Of a DNA stretch of 32,429 nucleotides, positions 7,447 to 32,429 are shown one piece after another. Position numbers and translations under genes: made by a program. The stretch spans positions 1-32,429 of IMG/VR virus record IMGVR_UViG_3300044629_000829. One strand, given 5' to 3'. The stretch is from a virus. The notes under the pieces are model-generated. The model was not told where the DNA came from. It was given only the letters and a program-made list of their open reading frames with translations, and ran no database searches. Within the stretch, counting starts at the first letter, position 1, and each line of letters begins with the position of its first letter.

Positions 7447-8868
7447 TTATACCGCGTAGGGGTTCTCGGCCTTGCGCGGGTTGGCGTCGGCGTAGTCGTC
7501 CTCGTCCACCCACTCTCTGGGGAAGTCGATGGTCAGCCAGCCCGCGTCGCGCAAGTATCGCAGGGCTTGGCTCATGGCGTCAACAAAGTCGTCGTGCTCG
7601 CTGCCGTCGGGGAAGCTGCATATCTGGCTGACCATGCCCTCCGCCCAGTCCCGCACGTAGCCCTTGCGGTTGCTGGACTCGGGTATCCAGACCCGGCCCG
7701 CCTTGATGATGTTCGCCACGATAGACAGCCGCTGGACCTTGTCGGCCTTGCCCGGGTTGTACGGGATCACGGGCACGCCGGCCCTGCGCAGGTCTTGGAT
7801 CAGGCTGATGCCCGCGCTCTTGTCCTCCACCAGCAGCAGGTCGACGCGCTTCTTGTTCTTGCCCTCGCCGTAGACGACCTCGTACTCGTCAAGGACCTTG
7901 GGCCGCAGGTCCGGGTACTGCAGGTGCTCCTGCCAGCAGTCGATCACCAGCGCACACATGCCGCCGTCCTCGGGCTTATACACGCCCAGCGTGATGTGCG
8001 CCGTGGGGTCGTTGATCGTCTTCTCGCTGGTCGCGCAGTCCAGCGACTGCAGCACGAACTCGAACTTCGGGAGCGGCTTACCCGCCGGCCAGAGCTTGAA
8101 CCACTCGCGCCGGACGATGCCGCCCTCCTCCGGGTCAATAATTTCGGCGTGGATTTCCTGTCGGCCCAGCTTGGTGCCCTCGTACTGCAATATCTGCTTC
8201 TGGAAGCTGGGCGCCAAGTTCTTGATGTTGCTGTAGGTGCTGGCCCTGCTGACCACCACGTCGTCGCCCTCACGCGAGATCAGGTCCATGACCACCGGCT
8301 TGGGCTTTGGCGTGGTGGAGGCGATCAGCTTGGTGCGCTGGCCCAGCCGGATGCCGAACTGGATCATGTCCCACGACTCCTGCAGGTACTCCCACGCCGC
8401 CAACTCGTCGCACCACCCGCCGTGGAACTGTGGGCCCCGGAAGCGCTCGGGCTCGCTTGCCGGGATGCCCTTGATTAGTGACCCGTTGGTCAGTGTGAGT
8501 TCGTGCAGGCTCTTGTTGTAGTCCGCCACCAGCGACGGTGGGATCACCGACAGCAGGCCGGAGTCGCCCTCAAAGCACGTGCCCCGCAAGTCGGCGCTGG
8601 TGGGGGCTGAGACGAGCCAGCGGGTGTTGGGCTGCTCCCACGCCCACCAGCCGAGGTTCTCGGCGGCTGCCCGGGTCTTGCCGGCGCCACGGCCTGCGCA
8701 CATGAGCCAGATCGACCACTTGTTAGTTAGTGGCTCTAGCTGGTGCTTGTGGGCCGCCATGAGCCACCGGGCTCTCCACTCAAAGGCTGCTCGCTGCTCA
8801 GGCTTGAGTCGTGCGTACTGGTCGCGGACCTTGGGGTCCTTGAGCAGTTCGGCGGCTGCGTTACTCAC
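7447..8868 (-). CDS. terL: Terminase large subunit
   Basis: This is the packaging motor ATPase and headful or cohesive-end nuclease that pumps DNA through the portal. In its 473 residues the Walker A motif is AGRGAGKT (58-65), the Walker B acidic pair is D154-E155 in GGWCDELAAW, and the coupling motif is STTP near 184-187. The C-terminal RNase H-like nuclease carries D277 (SLDCA), E348/D349 (LLVEDKSAG) and D426/D427/D430 (HDDFVDA). The initiator is GTG at 8868, which overlaps the end of terS by 8 bases, so translation of the two subunits is coupled. Length and motif order are normal for phage large terminases, and all catalytic residues are present. Confidence 0.96.
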   Translation of the reverse strand: MSNAAAELLKDPKVRDQYARLKPEQRAAFEWRARWLMAAHKHQLEPLTNKWSIWLMCAGRGAGKTRAAAENLGWWAWEQPNTRWLVSAPTSADLRGTCFEGDSGLLSVIPPSLVADYNKSLHELTLTNGSLIKGIPASEPERFRGPQFHGGWCDELAAWEYLQESWDMIQFGIRLGQRTKLIASTTPKPKPVVMDLISREGDDVVVSRASTYSNIKNLAPSFQKQILQYEGTKLGRQEIHAEIIDPEEGGIVRREWFKLWPAGKPLPKFEFVLQSLDCATSEKTINDPTAHITLGVYKPEDGGMCALVIDCWQEHLQYPDLRPKVLDEYEVVYGEGKNKKRVDLLLVEDKSAGISLIQDLRRAGVPVIPYNPGKADKVQRLSIVANIIKAGRVWIPESSNRKGYVRDWAEGMVSQICSFPDGSEHDDFVDAMSQALRYLRDAGWLTIDFPREWVDEDDYADANPRKAENPYAV

Positions 8869-9367
8869 CGGCTGCGCGGGTCAGGGCCATGTTCTTGAGC
8901 ACCTCGTCGAACACGCCGAACGACACCTCGACGGCCAGCGGTGCGTCCTCGTCGCCGGCCACCACCGTGCGGTCGCCGTACTTCTTGGGGTTCCATTTGG
9001 ACAACAGCTTGAGCCGGGTTTCAATTTGCATCTTGCGCCACTGGATGCTGCCTGCGTCGTAGCGCTTGTTGCCCACCTCGTCGAACACGGCCAGCGGCTC
9101 AGTATCCGCAAGCGCTGCGCACTCCTCGGCGATGGCCTCGTGGCCTATAACGCGTGCGTGCGCGATCCGTGCCTTGAAGTCGGCGTCGTCCTCAATCCAG
9201 TCGTACAGGGCTCCAAACTGTGGCATTCCCTTCTGCCTGCAGAACTCGCGCAGCGTCTTGCCCTGCGATATCCACGTGATCAGATCGCCCTTGATCTGCT
9301 CCTTGTTTGGGTAGGGACTGATGCCCGGTGGGCGTCCCATCTTCTTCCCCGTTTTACTCGTTGCCAT
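8861..9367 (-). CDS. terS: Terminase small subunit
   Basis: This is the DNA-recognition subunit of the packaging terminase, with 168 residues. The N-terminal basic KKMGRPPG segment is followed by a helix-turn-helix-like region (GDLITWISQGKTLREFCRQK, then ALYDWIEDDADFKARIAHAR). This arrangement is typical of Sf6-like small terminases. I choose the ATG at 9367 rather than an upstream in-frame ATG at 9388. A strong GGAGGG ribosome binding site sits 7 bases before 9367, and the upstream ATG lies inside a hairpin loop. The stop overlaps the GTG of terL. The ribosome binding site is embedded in a terminator-like hairpin (9370-9407), which may control late gene expression. Confidence 0.9.
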   Translation of the reverse strand: MATSKTGKKMGRPPGISPYPNKEQIKGDLITWISQGKTLREFCRQKGMPQFGALYDWIEDDADFKARIAHARVIGHEAIAEECAALADTEPLAVFDEVGNKRYDAGSIQWRKMQIETRLKLLSKWNPKKYGDRTVVAGDEDAPLAVEVSFGVFDEVLKNMALTRAAGE

Positions 9368-9369
9368 TG

Positions 9370-9407
9370 AAAAACCCTCCAAGCGCATCTCTCAGCGCGT
9401 TGGAGGG
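9370..9407 (-). terminator. Terminator-like hairpin containing the terS ribosome binding site
   Basis: On the minus strand, CCCTCCAA-C-GCGC (9407-9395) pairs with GCGCTTGGAGGG (9386-9375) around an 8-base loop. There is one bulged base. Five U residues (9374-9370) follow. This is the form of a Rho-independent terminator between the early block and the packaging genes. The GGAGGG at the end of the 3' arm is also the terS Shine-Dalgarno sequence, so termination and sequestration of the start site would share one structure. Confidence 0.68.
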
Positions 9408-9425
9408 TAGTTTAACGGGTTTGGC

Positions 9426-9686
9426 TTACTTGCTCAACTTCAGTTGCCGCTCGCGCAGGGCGTCGATCTCCGCCCACAGCTTGGCGAGCTGGTTTACCTG
9501 ATCAAGTATTTGGGCCATTTTCACGAACTGTGATGGACGGTACTTTGTAAGGTTTCCAGAATCACCATGATGCACTGTTACCCAACCCTGCTTAACACTT
9601 ACGCGACGATCACGCCCAATGGCTTTCATCGCTTGCTCGTAACGCACTGCCCATTGGACTGCATGGGCTGCTGTAACTTTATTCAT
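9426..9686 (-). CDS. Small hypothetical early protein (86 aa)
   Basis: I do not recognise this protein. It is 86 residues with an N-terminal helix (VTAAHAVQWAVRYEQAMKAI), a central WVTVHHGDSGNLTKYR patch, and a C-terminal helix rich in Leu and charged residues (ALRERQLKLSK) that could form a coiled coil. Two ATGs are possible. I choose 9686, seven bases after GGAG; the ATG at 9692 leaves only one base of spacing. It is the last early gene before the terminator-like hairpin upstream of terS. A stable hairpin and an ACACACC-GGAGAA leader precede it. Confidence 0.72.
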   Translation of the reverse strand: MNKVTAAHAVQWAVRYEQAMKAIGRDRRVSVKQGWVTVHHGDSGNLTKYRPSQFVKMAQILDQVNQLAKLWAEIDALRERQLKLSK

Positions 9687-9716
9687 CTTCATTCTCCGGT
9701 GTGTTGGTGTGTAGGA

Positions 9717-9732
9717 GGGGGCCGTGGCCCCC
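9717..9732 (-). repeat. Intercistronic hairpin A
   Basis: On the minus strand GGGGGC-CACG-GCCCCC forms a stem of 6 G:C pairs with a tetraloop. It starts six bases after the stop of the upstream gene (stop ends at 9739). It is one of four similar hairpins in this block. No U-run follows, so a simple intrinsic terminator is unlikely. Confidence 0.7.
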
Positions 9733-9738
9733 GGTGGA

Positions 9739-10134
9739 TTAGTAGATTGCGTAGCCGAGTTTGGCGTTGATGGCGATACCTTCATCTTCGGCGTGAACTG
9801 CAATCACTTGGCAGCAGGCATTGAAGAAGGTGTACCAAAAGAACACGGTGCCTTCAACAATTTTGTTGGAGAAATTTTCAGAAGCTACATTGCCGTCTTC
9901 AAGACGTTGCAAGCCAAGGGTGTTCAGGTCGTTGATAAGCTTGTTGTAGGCCGCTTTGCAGAAGTCTTCCTTAGCGCTCAACAGGGCGATGGCGGCGTCG
10001 ATGACCTTGCACTCATCCGTTCCGTAAGCAACGTCGGCCTTTTCGTAGAGGGAGGCGAAAGTTGTCTCGGGGGCGTTCCACTCAAGGTCCGCCACCATTT
10101 TGCGTGCTGCTTTTGTAATTTGCGTTTTGGTCAT
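9739..10134 (-). CDS. Hypothetical early protein (131 aa)
   Basis: I do not recognise this protein. It is 131 residues and largely predicted helical (KTQITKAARKMVADLEWN; KVIDAAIALLSAKEDFCKAA). A hydrophobic, aromatic stretch (GTVFFWYTFFNACCQVIAV, residues about 95-113) could be a buried core or a membrane segment. The start is the ATG at 10134, with GGAG seven bases upstream; an overlapping ATG six bases earlier is too close to GGAG. It has its own promoter with a 29-base inverted repeat upstream and ends six bases before hairpin A. Its base composition is lower in GC than its neighbours. Confidence 0.72.
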   Translation of the reverse strand: MTKTQITKAARKMVADLEWNAPETTFASLYEKADVAYGTDECKVIDAAIALLSAKEDFCKAAYNKLINDLNTLGLQRLEDGNVASENFSNKIVEGTVFFWYTFFNACCQVIAVHAEDEGIAINAKLGYAIY

Positions 10135-10166
10135 TTTCATTCTCCAGTGTGTGTTGGTGTGACTGA

Positions 10167-10548: not shown

Positions 10549-10575
10549 GCTGTTCTCCTGTGTGGGTGTGTAGGA

Positions 10576-10591
10576 GGGGGCCGAAGCCCCC
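10576..10591 (-). repeat. Intercistronic UUCG hairpin B
   Basis: On the minus strand GGGGGC-UUCG-GCCCCC is a canonical cUUCGg tetraloop hairpin. It begins six bases after the upstream stop codon, which ends at 10598. The five C residues just before it could compete for pairing with the G-run. Confidence 0.75.
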
Positions 10592-10597
10592 GGGGGT

Positions 10598-10900
10598 TTA
10601 CTTCACCAAATGGTTGGTGTACTTGCTCCAGTGACCATCAACGGTCTTGTACTTCTTGATGAACGCCTTGAGCATCCTGATGTCCTTCAGGGCGACCTTT
10701 TGGCCTACGCCTACATGGTCTACCCTCATGTCGTTGTTAATGTGGCCTTCCTCAAAGTAGGTCGAGAGGCGGTACTCTGCCTCGCTGACAATTTCATCAT
10801 CTGTGTAATCCTCTGGTTCTTTTTTGTCGTCAGCGCAAATGCATTCAAAAGCGAATTGCATTTCGGGGATAGCCGTTGCGGCTTTTACGATTGCTCTCAT
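10598..10900 (-). CDS. Hypothetical early protein (100 aa)
   Basis: This 100-residue protein begins MRAIVKAATAIPEMQFAFEC and has an acidic middle (ICADDKKEPEDYTDDEIVSE). The basic C-terminal half contains KVALKDIRMLKAFIKKYKTV and ends WSKYTNHLVK. I recognise no family. The start at 10900 has GGAG six bases upstream within the shared CA-rich leader; a longer in-frame reading lacks a ribosome binding site. It is the first gene after the promoter and inverted repeat at 10948-10974 and is followed by hairpin B. Confidence 0.74.
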   Translation of the reverse strand: MRAIVKAATAIPEMQFAFECICADDKKEPEDYTDDEIVSEAEYRLSTYFEEGHINNDMRVDHVGVGQKVALKDIRMLKAFIKKYKTVDGHWSKYTNHLVK

Positions 10901-10947
10901 GCTGTTCTCCGGTGTGTGTGTGTTGGCCGGAATTAACCAACAACTCA

Positions 10948-11710: not shown

Positions 11711-11726
11711 GGGGGCCGAAGCCCCC
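11711..11726 (-). repeat. Intercistronic UUCG hairpin C
   Basis: On the minus strand GGGGGC-UUCG-GCCCCC lies seven bases after the stop of the DUF932 gene and 16 bases before the next start. Its sequence is identical to hairpin B. Confidence 0.75.
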
Positions 11727-11733
11727 GGGTTGA

Positions 11734-15334: not shown

Positions 15335-15553
15335 CTAGATGCCGTCGGTCAGCATTTCCACGATGCGTGGGTCCAGCAGCAGGGCTCGGCTGACCCCCGT
15401 AGCCTGCTCGATGGCGATCGCGCTCGATGGGGGCACGTAGCCCCTGCGCAGCCACGTCGAGATGTTCTGCTGGGTGCAGCCCAGCGCGGAGGCCAGCTTG
15501 GCCTGCGAGCCGATGGCGCGGATGGCTTGGTCGATGCCGGTGAGGTCACTCAT
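15335..15553 (-). CDS. Cro/YdaS-like helix-turn-helix regulator (72 aa)
   Basis: This 72-residue single-domain DNA-binding protein contains AIRAIGSQAKLASALGCTQQ followed by NISTWLRRGYVPPSSAIAIE, a standard Cro/YdaS helix-turn-helix with recognition helix around residues 26-34. Such proteins act as Cro-type repressors in phage switches. The start ATG at 15553 has AGGA six bases upstream and overlaps the previous stop (ATGA). It lies between the winged-helix gene and the primase-helicase. A second Cro-like gene lies at 26217-26417. Confidence 0.85.
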   Translation of the reverse strand: MSDLTGIDQAIRAIGSQAKLASALGCTQQNISTWLRRGYVPPSSAIAIEQATGVSRALLLDPRIVEMLTDGI

Positions 15554-15786
15554 GTCAGGTCCTTTGGATGTGGGCAATTATCTGGCACGGGGACCGAGCA
15601 CCAGACGGCTTGGTAGGGGAAGGCGCCCCGGGGCGGCTGCCACCGGTCGATGTAGACGTCGGGCATCTTGGCGACCGCCCGGTGGGCGTACCGGTAGGGC
15701 ACCCCAGCGAAGTGAGCAATCTCGTTCAGGGTCAGGCCGTCCGAATGTATGCGCAGGGTGCTGCGCACGAGGAGTTCAGTCTTCAT
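15550..15786 (-). CDS. Small winged-helix DNA-binding protein (78 aa)
   Basis: The 78 residues include a helix-turn-helix segment GLTLNEIAHFAGVPYRYAHR followed by AVAKMPDVYIDRW, which reads as a winged-helix wing. The Pro/Trp-rich tail is QAVWCSVPVPDNCPHPKDLT. It is probably a transcription regulator or accessory DNA-binding protein. It overlaps the genes on both sides by ATGA. The ribosome binding site is weak (AGAG) and sits in the preceding gene. The exact family is not certain. Confidence 0.78.
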   Translation of the reverse strand: MKTELLVRSTLRIHSDGLTLNEIAHFAGVPYRYAHRAVAKMPDVYIDRWQPPRGAFPYQAVWCSVPVPDNCPHPKDLT

Positions 15787-16046
15787 GGCTTCTCTTCAAC
15801 GGCAGCCTCTGCCAACAGCGAGTCGTACTTGTCTCGCAAATCGTTGATGCAGTCTTGCAGCATGTCCAGCCGCACCACGACGTGCGCGTCGTCGAATGCT
15901 TTGCTGTACTTGACGCTGCCTTCGCCCTTGGTGTCGCTCCAATGTAGATCAATCAGTTTCATGGTCGTTTCCTCTGTGGCGTTGGTGTTTAGTCGGTACT
16001 TTATCTCGCGCTCGATGCGCTCGAACTCGTCGTCTTCAGTGAGCAT
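15783..16046 (-). CDS. Small hypothetical protein with internal start candidate (87 aa)
   Basis: This acidic protein begins MLTEDDEFERIEREIKYRLN and continues TNATEETT, then MKLIDLHWSDTKGEGSVKYS and a helical tail. An ATG at 15962, preceded by GAGGAAACGACC, is a credible second start giving a 59-residue product. The first ATG at 16046 has a strong AAGGAG site. One long and one short product may be made. Its start lies inside the Mom-like gene, whose last 46 bases it overlaps out of frame. I recognise no family. Confidence 0.68.
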   Translation of the reverse strand: MLTEDDEFERIEREIKYRLNTNATEETTMKLIDLHWSDTKGEGSVKYSKAFDDAHVVVRLDMLQDCINDLRDKYDSLLAEAAVEEKP

Positions 16047-16663
16047 GTGTTCTCCTTCGGGTATGGTTGCTGTTTGTATTTCAAAGCTGCCAGCAATTCA
16101 ACCTTTCTGTGGCCTTTCGCGTTAATAAAAACATACCTGTGCTTCCTAGTTCTTTTCCCCACAATAAGTCTGTCGCCATACTTTTCTTTCAATTCTGTAA
16201 TCGTCAAATTGTCGCCGCGAGATTGAAAAGTTTGCTTCACTAAGCCCTCCACAGTTCGCGTAGTCCCTTGTGCGGAAAGTCCGGTATAAATCCAGTTTGT
16301 CGCTTGGTATACAACCCCCAGATGTTGTTGACCACTATCGGCGTAAGACACAACGATTTCTTTGCCGCACTTCTTAAGAGTATTCCCAATAAGGAAACTC
16401 TCCCCGTTGCGCGGCACAGAGTCACAAACCCAAAGCCGGGTGAGTTCTACCACGTTAAAAGAGTTTTCAACTCCTGCGATACTTGTTTTCAGTGTTGAAC
16501 TACTTGGTGTTCCGTAGCAAATAACCCCCTTGAGTTCCTTGCTTAAAAACAACCCGAACGCCACGCTACAAGGCGCTTTTCTGTGCAGGTAGTGCTCCCG
16601 CACAATCAAGTCCATTGCGGTGCGGTAGTCTATCTGGCGTATTATGTAATTCTCAAGTGCCAT
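16001..16663 (-). CDS. Mom-like DNA modification acyltransferase
   Basis: The 220-residue protein resembles the phage Mu Mom family, GNAT-fold enzymes that in Mu convert adenine in DNA to an N6-carbamoylmethyl form and protect it from restriction. Key segments are REHYLHRKAPCSVAFGLF (residues about 22-39), VVELTRLWVCDSVPRNGESF (71-90), IVVSYADSGQQHLGVVYQAT (103-122) and NWIYTG (123-128). The C-terminal KHRYVFINAKGHRKVELL is also seen in Mom-like phage proteins. The Ser-rich tail (TTSSSASSAR) lies in the overlap with the next gene. The start at 16663 has AAAGGAG eight bases upstream within the upstream gene. Base composition is visibly lower in GC than flanking genes, consistent with transfer. 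Its actual substrate here is unknown. Confidence 0.85.
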   Translation of the reverse strand: MALENYIIRQIDYRTAMDLIVREHYLHRKAPCSVAFGLFLSKELKGVICYGTPSSSTLKTSIAGVENSFNVVELTRLWVCDSVPRNGESFLIGNTLKKCGKEIVVSYADSGQQHLGVVYQATNWIYTGLSAQGTTRTVEGLVKQTFQSRGDNLTITELKEKYGDRLIVGKRTRKHRYVFINAKGHRKVELLAALKYKQQPYPKENTCSLKTTSSSASSAR

Positions 16664-26103: not shown

Positions 26104-26323
26104 TTTTTCAACATGGACCCGCGAGGGATTGGAAAGCATCGCCCGCCAAGCAGTGGACGAAAACAAACAACTCCGCGAGGACAACAAGCTGCTGCTGGCC
26201 GCGTGGCGGCAGGCGATCAGCGAAAGATATCTGGCCGGAGTTCCTGCCGGGTCACCAGCCCACCCGTCGCCTCCTCGATCTTCACCGACAGCAGCGGGGA
26301 CGCCCTCCGGCGCCCCGAGATGA
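26090..26323 (+). CDS. Small helical protein overlapping an antisense repressor gene (77 aa)
   Basis: The first half (MPKADFSTWTREGLESIARQ, then ENKQLREDNKLLLAAWRQAI) is a helical segment of a type seen in small phage proteins. The second half is a Pro/Ser/Ala tail encoded opposite the C-terminal coding part of the minus-strand Cro-like gene (overlap 26217-26323). AAGGAAAAGC precedes the ATG. The N-terminal half is likely real; the tail may be only a by-product of the overlap. Confidence 0.6.
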   Translation: MPKADFSTWTREGLESIARQAVDENKQLREDNKLLLAAWRQAISERYLAGVPAGSPAHPSPPRSSPTAAGTPSGAPR

Positions 26324-26417
26324 GCAGGGCCATCCACGTCGGGGTGACGCCGAGGTGCTCGGCCATCTCTGACTTGGCACCCCGCACGTCGGTCTTGAAG
26401 TATTCAATGAGGGTCAT
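26217..26417 (-). CDS. Cro/YdaS-like repressor with leaderless promoter (66 aa)
   Basis: The 66-residue protein begins MTLIEYFKTDVRGAKSEMAE and includes HLGVTPTWMALLISGRRRAS, a Cro/CI-type helix-turn-helix. It ends TRQELRPDIFR, typical of YdaS-like proteins. I choose the ATG at 26417: upstream, TATAAT ends six bases away, so transcription should start at or next to the A of the ATG. It is divergent from the plus gene at 26465 and lies at the end of the plus early block, a place suited to a lysis-lysogeny type switch. It is convergent with the 77-residue gene. Confidence 0.78.
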   Translation of the reverse strand: MTLIEYFKTDVRGAKSEMAEHLGVTPTWMALLISGRRRASPLLSVKIEEATGGLVTRQELRPDIFR

Positions 26418-26423
26418 TCCCGC

Positions 26424-26451
26424 ATTATAATCAAACCCCAAGTTAGATCAA
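26424..26451 (-). promoter_or_regulatory. Repressor promoter; -10 shared with divergent gene
   Basis: On the minus strand TTGATC (26451-26446), 16 bases, TATAAT (26429-26424) makes a strong sigma70 promoter whose start falls at the repressor ATG. ATTATAAT (26424-26431) is a palindrome, so a plus-strand TATAAT (26426-26431) also exists for the gene at 26465, with a weak -35 (TTCAAT, 26403-26408). Confidence 0.7.
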
Positions 26452-31128: not shown

Positions 31129-32429
31129 GCTTCTTCCCCTTTGAGGACTTCAGGTATTCTAGCGGAGACTTGGCGTCCGGGGGCAACTTGTCCGGTGGCG
31201 CAGACCGGGCCCGGGAGCGGATGGCTTGCACCATCCTGTCGAGTTCTTCCGCCCCGGCCTTGTTCGATCCGTTCCCCAGCGCGGCCACCACGTCCGCCGA
31301 GAACACGTACTCCCCGTTCGCAAGCATCGCCGCGATGTCGTCGCTGGTGCCGTCGCCCTTGCCCTCCACGTACTTGCCGCCCAAGCCGCTCAGGCCGCCC
31401 GTGCGCAGCAGGGGCATGCCGTCGTAGTTGGGGTGGGTGTGGTCGTCCGGTTGCCCGCCCTCGGCGAGCGTCATCCCCCGGGCCCGCAGGAGTGCCGCAA
31501 GCTGGGGCAGCACCTTGGAGTTGTGGGCCCCGCCCATCTGGCCCTGCTTCAGAAGCATAGGACGTTCGGGCTTGCCATCAAAGCCCAAGGCACCGAGGCC
31601 CTTCAGGGCGGCCATGGTATCCCGCACGGCATAGGACTGGTCGGGTTGAGCCCCATCCGCAAGGTTCTGGACCGGGCCGCCTTGGGCGTATCCGGTGTAC
31701 GCCGAGTAGTTGGGCTGTGGCGCGGAAAATGGTAGGGTGTTGGCCTTGAGGATATCCACCATCTCTGGGTTAACGTCGTTCACGTAGCCGTAGTTTGGCG
31801 ACGAGTTTGTTACGAGGTTGTCGTAGAGTTGTTTTAGCTCATGTCGGCTCATATCTTGTCCCATCTTTCCTACACGTAAAAGGTTGCCCCCGACGGCGGT
31901 CTGGTCTGAATAGCTTGAGGTGGGCAGCCCACCGCCGCCTGTAACGGTTGGTGTAACGGTTGGCTTAACGGTTGGCTTAACAGTAACCTTGAGGGCCCCG
32001 CCGCCGCCAGTATCTACCGGCGCGGGGGTATCCGCGATCACTCCCGTCACAAGCCCGGGCGACCCAACATCCGTCAAGGGCAACTCGGATAAGGGCGGCA
32101 GGTCTTCGTAGTAATAGTCGTCGTCAGGCCGAGTCAAGACGTCGGTGTTGACGCTTGCAACATCCCCCCACGAGTTAACGTCTGTCAAAGGCAGGTCGGA
32201 TAGGTCGGTGTTTACCTCGGCAACATCCCCCCACGAGTTAACGTCGGTGAGAGGCAGGTCGGAAAAGCCTGTGTAGTAGTTGTCATCAGGCCGGGTGTAA
32301 GTGGTGGCGTCAAAGGGCGCACTCTCGCTTGGGTACACATAGTCATCGGGCGCGGTGTAAGTGGTGGCGTCAAAGGGCGCACTCTCGCTTGGGTAAACGT
32401 AGTTATCGGGCGCGGTGTAAGTGGTGGCG
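31121..32429 (-). CDS. Repeat-rich virion-type protein (5' end cut by window edge)
   Basis: The frame stays open to the window end (436 codons visible), so the true start lies beyond 32429; a GTG at 32338 is only an internal codon of the repeat. The visible N-terminal part is acidic, Tyr/Pro/Asp-rich tandem repeats (ATTYTAPDDYVYPSESAPFD, then SDLPLTDVNSWGDVA). Next come a VKPTVKPTVTPT linker and a Gly-rich spacer. The C-terminal region (GKGDGTSDDIAAMLANGEYV then FSADVVAALGNGSNKAGAEE) is a conserved phage virion phrase. It contains GYAQGGPVQ, another GGxV linker. It is probably a structural protein with a flexible N-terminus; the role is unknown. Confidence 0.72.
   Translation of the reverse strand, partial: ATTYTAPDNYVYPSESAPFDATTYTAPDDYVYPSESAPFDATTYTRPDDNYYTGFSDLPLTDVNSWGDVAEVNTDLSDLPLTDVNSWGDVASVNTDVLTRPDDDYYYEDLPPLSELPLTDVGSPGLVTGVIADTPAPVDTGGGGALKVTVKPTVKPTVTPTVTGGGGLPTSSYSDQTAVGGNLLRVGKMGQDMSRHELKQLYDNLVTNSSPNYGYVNDVNPEMVDILKANTLPFSAPQPNYSAYTGYAQGGPVQNLADGAQPDQSYAVRDTMAALKGLGALGFDGKPERPMLLKQGQMGGAHNSKVLPQLAALLRARGMTLAEGGQPDDHTHPNYDGMPLLRTGGLSGLGGKYVEGKGDGTSDDIAAMLANGEYVFSADVVAALGNGSNKAGAEELDRMVQAIRSRARSAPPDKLPPDAKSPLEYLKSSKGKKHG
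31941..31987 (-). repeat. 12-bp repeats encoding VKPT linker
   Basis: The plus-strand unit CGGTTGGCTTAA recurs every 12 bases with small changes across this stretch. It encodes PTVK/PTVT units on the minus strand and separates the acidic repeats from the C-terminal region of the virion protein. Confidence 0.72.
32158..32270 (-). repeat. 63-bp tandem repeat encoding a 21-residue acidic unit
   Basis: CAACATCCCCCCACGAGTTA begins at 32158 and again at 32221 on the plus strand. On the minus strand both encode SDLPLTDVNSWGDVA followed by EVNTD or SVNTD. A third, diverged SELPLTDVGS unit follows toward 32060. Confidence 0.82.
32297..32429 (-). repeat. 60-bp tandem repeat running off the window
   Basis: GTAAGTGGTGGCGTCAAAGG begins at 32297 and 32357, and its first 13 bases recur at 32417, giving a period of exactly 60 bases. 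The 20-residue unit on the minus strand is ATTYTAPDDYVYPSESAPFD. The total copy number cannot be seen because the array reaches the edge. Confidence 0.88.

Follow-up and report, generated by a model that had tools for sequence, protein, structure and literature searches.

A Shine–Dalgarno-hiding hairpin with a putative nested late promoter in the terS leader of a group of uncultured freshwater phages

The silencing of late genes in phages that encode neither a recognized late sigma factor nor their own RNA polymerase is, to our knowledge, understood for only a few model phages. The leader of the small terminase gene terS in IMG/VR virus record IMGVR_UViG_3300044629_000829, analysed over its whole stretch of 32,429 nucleotides (hereafter the window), raises the question of whether a compact RNA structure could keep the structural genes silent early in infection and release them late. 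A first-pass annotation of this locus had described a terminator hairpin directly before the terS start codon, naming no strand, and had suggested an early/late switch. The hairpin is confirmed here, on the minus strand, with the following features:

7447..8868, minus strand: terL, large terminase, the next gene in the block (Pfam Terminase_6N/6C)
8861..9367, minus strand: terS, Sf6-type small terminase of 168 aa (Pfam PF20901, E 3.3e-25; PHROG 1482)
9370..9374, minus strand: U5 tract, a terminator-like touch to the hairpin in the lineage of the window
9374..9381, minus strand: 3′ arm of the outer stem, TGGAGGGT, holding the terS Shine–Dalgarno sequence (SD) GGAGGG at 9380-9375
9382..9400, minus strand: near-invariant inner hairpin, ACGCGCTGAGAGATGCGCT, with a GCGC stem, a bulged C and a GNRA-type loop
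9401..9408, minus strand: 5′ arm of the outer stem (anti-SD), ACCCTCCA, from fold and covariation
9401..9402, minus strand: predicted transcription start at the seventh to eighth base past the hexamer, from spacing
9409..9416, minus strand: -10-like hexamer TAAACT (9414-9409), with G as the second base before it, together GTTAAACT, from conservation in both leader families
9426..9692, minus strand: small upstream gene, from the ORF list, the transcript of which would enter the hairpin
9432..9437, minus strand: weak -35-like TTGAGC, 17 nt upstream of the -10-like hexamer, matching at 4 of 6 positions

Read 5′ to 3′ on the minus strand, the order is GTTAAACT, ACCCTCCA, ACGCGCTGAGAGATGCGCT, TGGAGGGT, TTTTCA and the ATG at 9367. 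The outer stem pairs 9408-9401 with 9381-9374, and the inner GCGC/GCGC stem is lengthened by A-U and U-A pairs across the bulged C and a bulged U. As had been proposed, GGAGGG is both the end of the stem and the SD, lying within the 3′ arm 7 nt ahead of the terS ATG. The predicted fold of the leader has an energy of -33.7 kcal/mol (z = -3.2), equalled by 2 of 200 shuffles, and in this it is a stable GC-rich hairpin of the kind expected of intrinsic terminators. It is missing from the output of a simple terminator scan of the window, probably because the stem contains the bulged C. Among about 40 candidate starts in the window, the SD of terS is predicted to be the most buried (0.00 unpaired), and the inner core occurs only once in the window.

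The hairpin lies between replication-type and structural genes, based on the genes to either side. The structural block opens with terS, followed by terL and, farther downstream on the same strand, by a portal gene; same-strand genes upstream of terS include a replication-type AAA ATPase, and genes for an exonuclease, a DNA polymerase and a helicase lie on the opposite strand. The small gene immediately upstream has no match in Pfam or PHROG. Within the hairpin loop, at 9388, an in-frame ATG could lengthen terS, but a coding role for it was rejected, since the frame is not conserved and relatives read out of frame or as Met-Arg-stop.

To look upstream of terS in related phages, 80 terL relatives were taken from IMG/VR; a 19-nt core, ACGCGCTG-NR-AGAT-GCGCT, is present at the same site in most of them. 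Scanning with this pattern returned 100 contig stretches, and those preceding a terS-like ORF make up 53 distinct leaders, here family 1; the remaining stretches look like chance matches in coding DNA. All family 1 loops are GNRA (GAGA in 35, GCAA in 17 and GAAA in 1), and GNRA-GAU is present in 52 of the 53 leaders. When the six loop bases were left free, one additional loop type was recovered, again GNRA, and scans relaxed to admit different loops or different inner stems added no family 1 terS leaders except one loop variant. A diverged form, TAAACT-TTCCAGT-TATGCGC-TGAAATGACT-GCGC-GACAAAGG-ACTGGAA-TATG, is present in the complete 57 kb phage genome MW202545, and the TerS relatives of this phage led to a second family, whose core is ATGCGCTGAAAnnATyGCGCGA and whose outer stems include CTATGCCC/GGGCATAG, TTCGGTCC/GGACTGAA and CTCTG/CAGAG. 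The covariance model of family 1 also matches a family 2 leader (L224, E 5e-5), and it finds the full element at most once per source examined.

In total there are about 69 distinct terS leaders, 67 in the two families and two further variants, drawn from IMG/VR contigs and the one complete phage genome; the phage group carrying the hairpin is a freshwater one. They have a common architecture: a -10-like hexamer, a fast-changing 5′ arm, the near-invariant core ACGCGCU-GNRA-GAU-GCGCU or its sister form, and a 3′ arm that carries or clamps the SD. No Rfam family exceeded its gathering threshold, matches being far below the cut-offs, and a blastn search of phage records with the 53-nt element found no match. 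Likewise, the family 1 pattern has no match in bacterial genomes, and the family 2 pattern matches a single contig, from a Betaproteobacteria MAG. Hosts are uncertain, since the sequences are all metagenomic except for this contig and one complete uncultured genome. In L004 and L007 compared with L001 and L025, the TerS proteins share their start (of the MATGKKMGRP type or MATSKTGKKMGRP) and the leader and diverge afterwards, which suggests module exchange directly downstream of the element.

The hairpin is more than a chance fold, as dozens of relatives have the same element ahead of terS and show compensatory changes in it. Because MAFFT alignment of two distant leaders is unreliable, arm-swap energies and counts from a covariance-model alignment were used instead. 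The two arms of a leader pair with each other at -7.6 kcal/mol and arms swapped among leaders at -5.3 kcal/mol, and none of 10,000 permutations was as good. Two-sided changes are present at all six outer pairs (40 cells, against a shuffled mean of 15) and the covariation score is 0.150 against 0.075 (0 of 500 shuffles as high), with the counts being inflated by relatedness and the alignment itself being fitted to the structure. Sliding the pairing partner abolishes the signal. In family 1 the inner helix does not vary; in family 2 it changes from GCGC/GCGC to GCAC/GTGC (L197). The stems of the two families are independent in sequence, however, and this argues for a real constraint. The conserved feature is thus an RNA in which the terS ribosome binding site is paired or clamped, and this structure is well supported.

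A way out of such a clamp may be provided by the hexamer, which stands 7-10 bases upstream of the core as TAAACT or as the variants TAGACT, TAAAAT, TAGAAT, TACACT and TATCCT. In an alignment of 31 sequences from both families, T1, A2 and T6 are invariant and positions 3-5 vary; these three are the most important positions of the bacterial -10 box. A G precedes the hexamer by two bases in 58 of 67 leaders. In family 1 the hexamer is kept over 18 unrelated upstream contexts, and it is present in family 2 as well, although it is part of one inherited block, so its conservation partly reflects shared descent, and although it coincides with the stop codon of the upstream gene in about ten relatives. 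No -35 box is conserved across the 18 contexts (p = 0.25); a peak at 17 nt over all sequences disappeared once the 18 upstream lineages were weighted equally. The strength of the promoter unaided is therefore doubtful.

The hexamer can also be followed where the hairpin has changed. Relatives of the L042 clade have no hairpin, yet they keep TA(A/G)ACT exactly 7 nt ahead of the ATG, as expected of the -10 box of a leaderless mRNA, if the hexamer acts as one. In L243-L262 of this clade, TA(A/G)ACT-CGCGCGC-ATG directly precedes terS with no SD, which suggests a leaderless late mRNA for terS in these phages. In L230 the hexamer persists and the clamp is another one, its 5′ arm being the hexamer region itself (GTTAAAC ... 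GTTTAAC surrounding the SD ahead of terS, at about 1874-1910). In L066 and L131, the hexamer and the 5′ arm are lost jointly. From these comparisons we infer that the hexamer may be a promoter.

Truncating 50 leaders at the predicted start, 7 bases past the hexamer, raises the mean unpaired fraction of the SD in predicted folds from 0.24 to 0.66, with a gain of more than 0.2 in 40 of the 50, a release that is partly true by construction, since the pairing partner has been removed. Across 69 leaders, the region from SD to start has about 7.0 bases paired with sequence upstream of the predicted start and 1.3 with sequence downstream. SD pairing is weak in the full fold of L055, L081, L103, L114 and L155.

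The reading proposed here, to which we assign a probability of roughly 55 %, is that the terS leader would be an early/late switch with a nested late promoter. Read-through RNA from the upstream early or middle genes would contain both arms, which would pair the SD and leave terS poorly translated; in the lineage of the window, the U5 tract may additionally end some of these transcripts. A promoter using the -10-like TAAACT at 9414-9409 would start RNA at about 9402-9401, within the hairpin, and this RNA would have lost the 5′ arm; it would begin with the small GCGC/GNRA hairpin, and its SD would be free. Read-through mRNA would thus be silent and late, promoter-initiated mRNA translatable. 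Sequence comparison covers the hairpin, the SD pairing, the covariation, the hexamer and its placement; that the hexamer is a late promoter, with this effect on translation, is what we infer.

The closest precedent is gene e of phage T4, and also soc, 49 and I-TevI, in which long early transcripts fold to hide the SD or start and late promoters are positioned so that short transcripts miss the 5′ strand of the structure (PMC3014915). In both systems the SD or start is paired in the long transcript, here by predicted folds and covariation. As to promoter placement, the terS leaders have a conserved -10-like hexamer at a position from which a short transcript would miss the 5′ strand, with no conserved -35. 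The differences are that the regulated gene is terS, which heads the structural block, that the hexamer is of the TAAACT type where T4 late promoters have TATAAATA, that the inner GNRA hairpin is invariant, and that the promoter is a predicted one. The first-pass annotation had regarded a late promoter inside the hairpin as evidence against a switch; the comparative data point to a -10-like hexamer directly 5′ with its predicted start inside, and this leaves the switch idea unrefuted, the arrangement being the likely means of bypass by analogy with T4 gene e (PMC3014915). It looks like a switch of a sort not previously described for terS, and is best read as an SD-hiding leader containing a nested promoter, in a new and widespread version positioned at the entrance to the structural genes.

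The suggested switch is partly supported: the SD occlusion is backed by covariation in two families, and the placement at an early/late boundary is supported as well; the terminator part is weak. An 8-bp GC-rich stem followed by U5 does fit an intrinsic terminator closing an early operon, the SD overlap being a by-product of compactness, but a run of at least four U is present in only about 10 of the 53 family 1 leaders and in no family 2 leader. The carriers are the window (L010), L001, L004, L006, L008, L009, L059, L030, L103 and L114, the run being interrupted in L095; in the window U5 is followed by CAA, a short tail, and other family 1 leaders end in CGGATT, CACAA, TACAA or AGAAC. Termination as the main function was therefore rejected as very improbable, the terminator being a local extra and SD occlusion the conserved feature. 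Translational coupling, in which ribosomes that terminate on the TAA within TAAACT, at the end of the upstream gene, would melt the 5′ arm and pass to terS, draws on about 10 relatives in which the upstream ORF stops exactly at the hexamer; only these cases were used, as an automatic strand count of upstream ORFs is unreliable with short genes and antisense ORFs. In the window, however, the upstream stop (9428-9426) lies 14 nt ahead of the hexamer in a different frame, and the family 2 hexamer is often TACACT, which is not a stop, so coupling is very unlikely indeed. The dyad symmetry and the position adjoining terS could also mark a DNA packaging site (pac or cos) rather than an RNA element, but this is extremely unlikely because the arms track the SD, with which they covary. 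Moreover, TerS is of the Sf6 type, which we take to be a relative of headful-packaging systems.

The nested-promoter model alone does not account for how strictly the inner loop is conserved. This would be better explained by a protein-bound switch, in which a phage or host protein or a ligand on the invariant GCGC/GNRA hairpin stabilizes or opens the outer stem, as in TerS autoregulation or with a Com-like activator, the hexamer being merely part of the RNA. The inner core is near-invariant while the outer stem varies freely, as would a bound loop, family 2 retains the GCGCUGAAA half of the core, and there is a precedent in the com-mom system of phage Mu, where a hairpin in phage mRNA likewise covers a translation start (PMC6483171). 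The Mu structure is opened by the Com protein, however, and no Com zinc-finger Pfam match was found among ten window proteins scanned; a Mom-family DNA modification gene is present (16001-16663, minus strand; PF25680, E 4e-42) but is not the regulated gene. A pure RNA switch also leaves unexplained the invariance of hexamer positions 1, 2 and 6 and the persistence of the hexamer without the hairpin, and its binder is a putative one; we consider it unlikely. Alternatively, the inner hairpin could be the 5′ end of a long late mRNA, acting in antitermination (boxB or put type) or 5′ protection, with SD occlusion as a side effect. terS does head an extended run of same-strand genes, which in MW202545 spans about 35 kb, and the core GCGCUGAGAGAUGCGC resembles the P22 boxB GCGCUGACAAAGCGC in its GCGCU stem and GNRA-like loop (PMC11480772), a resemblance by sequence alone and a lead only. 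The core differs from P22 nut in its 3′ bulge, its single copy in the searched genomes, its place in the terS leader and the absence, by eye, of a boxA-like sequence common to all leaders; the covariation of the outer stem would also be left unexplained, making this reading improbable. Structured RNA from the terminase region is known as well from the staphylococcal cabRNA of terS-terL, which lies within coding regions, has no SD-hiding leader role (PMC10686824) and has no known sequence relation to the element.

Returning to the nested-promoter switch, a broader and rather improbable version is that these leaders form a widespread, previously undescribed family in which a late promoter is nested, the stem hiding the SD evolves fast, and the whole late transcript begins with an invariant hairpin resembling boxB. 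If true, early silence and late translation would both be set by a single element of about 50 nt, which would also govern elongation or stability of the late operon via a loop-bound factor. A compact terS leader would offer a sequence signature of the early/late boundary in uncultured phages, together with a switch that can be tested; owing to its covariation the SD-hiding stem is a firm target, and the invariant loop hints at a putative partner of the inner hairpin.

Other repeats and regulators were observed in the window. An intergenic cassette, in which a GGGGGCC-n-GGCCCCC hairpin is combined with a CA-rich, SD-bearing leader (like CACACCAACACACCGGAGAATG), is repeated ahead of several upstream small genes (9696-9741, 10126-10165, 10555-10600, 10884-10926 and 11711-11729), and its GGGGGCCACGGCCCCC hairpin also directly precedes the terS element in L004 and L081. 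Two small YdaS/Cro-like HTH proteins (15335-15577 and 26217-26441, both minus strand) may indicate a repressor-type circuit. Near-identical protein-segment repeats (SESAPFDATTYT) at 32212-32429 run off the end of the contig and may be the reason that the assembly stopped there.
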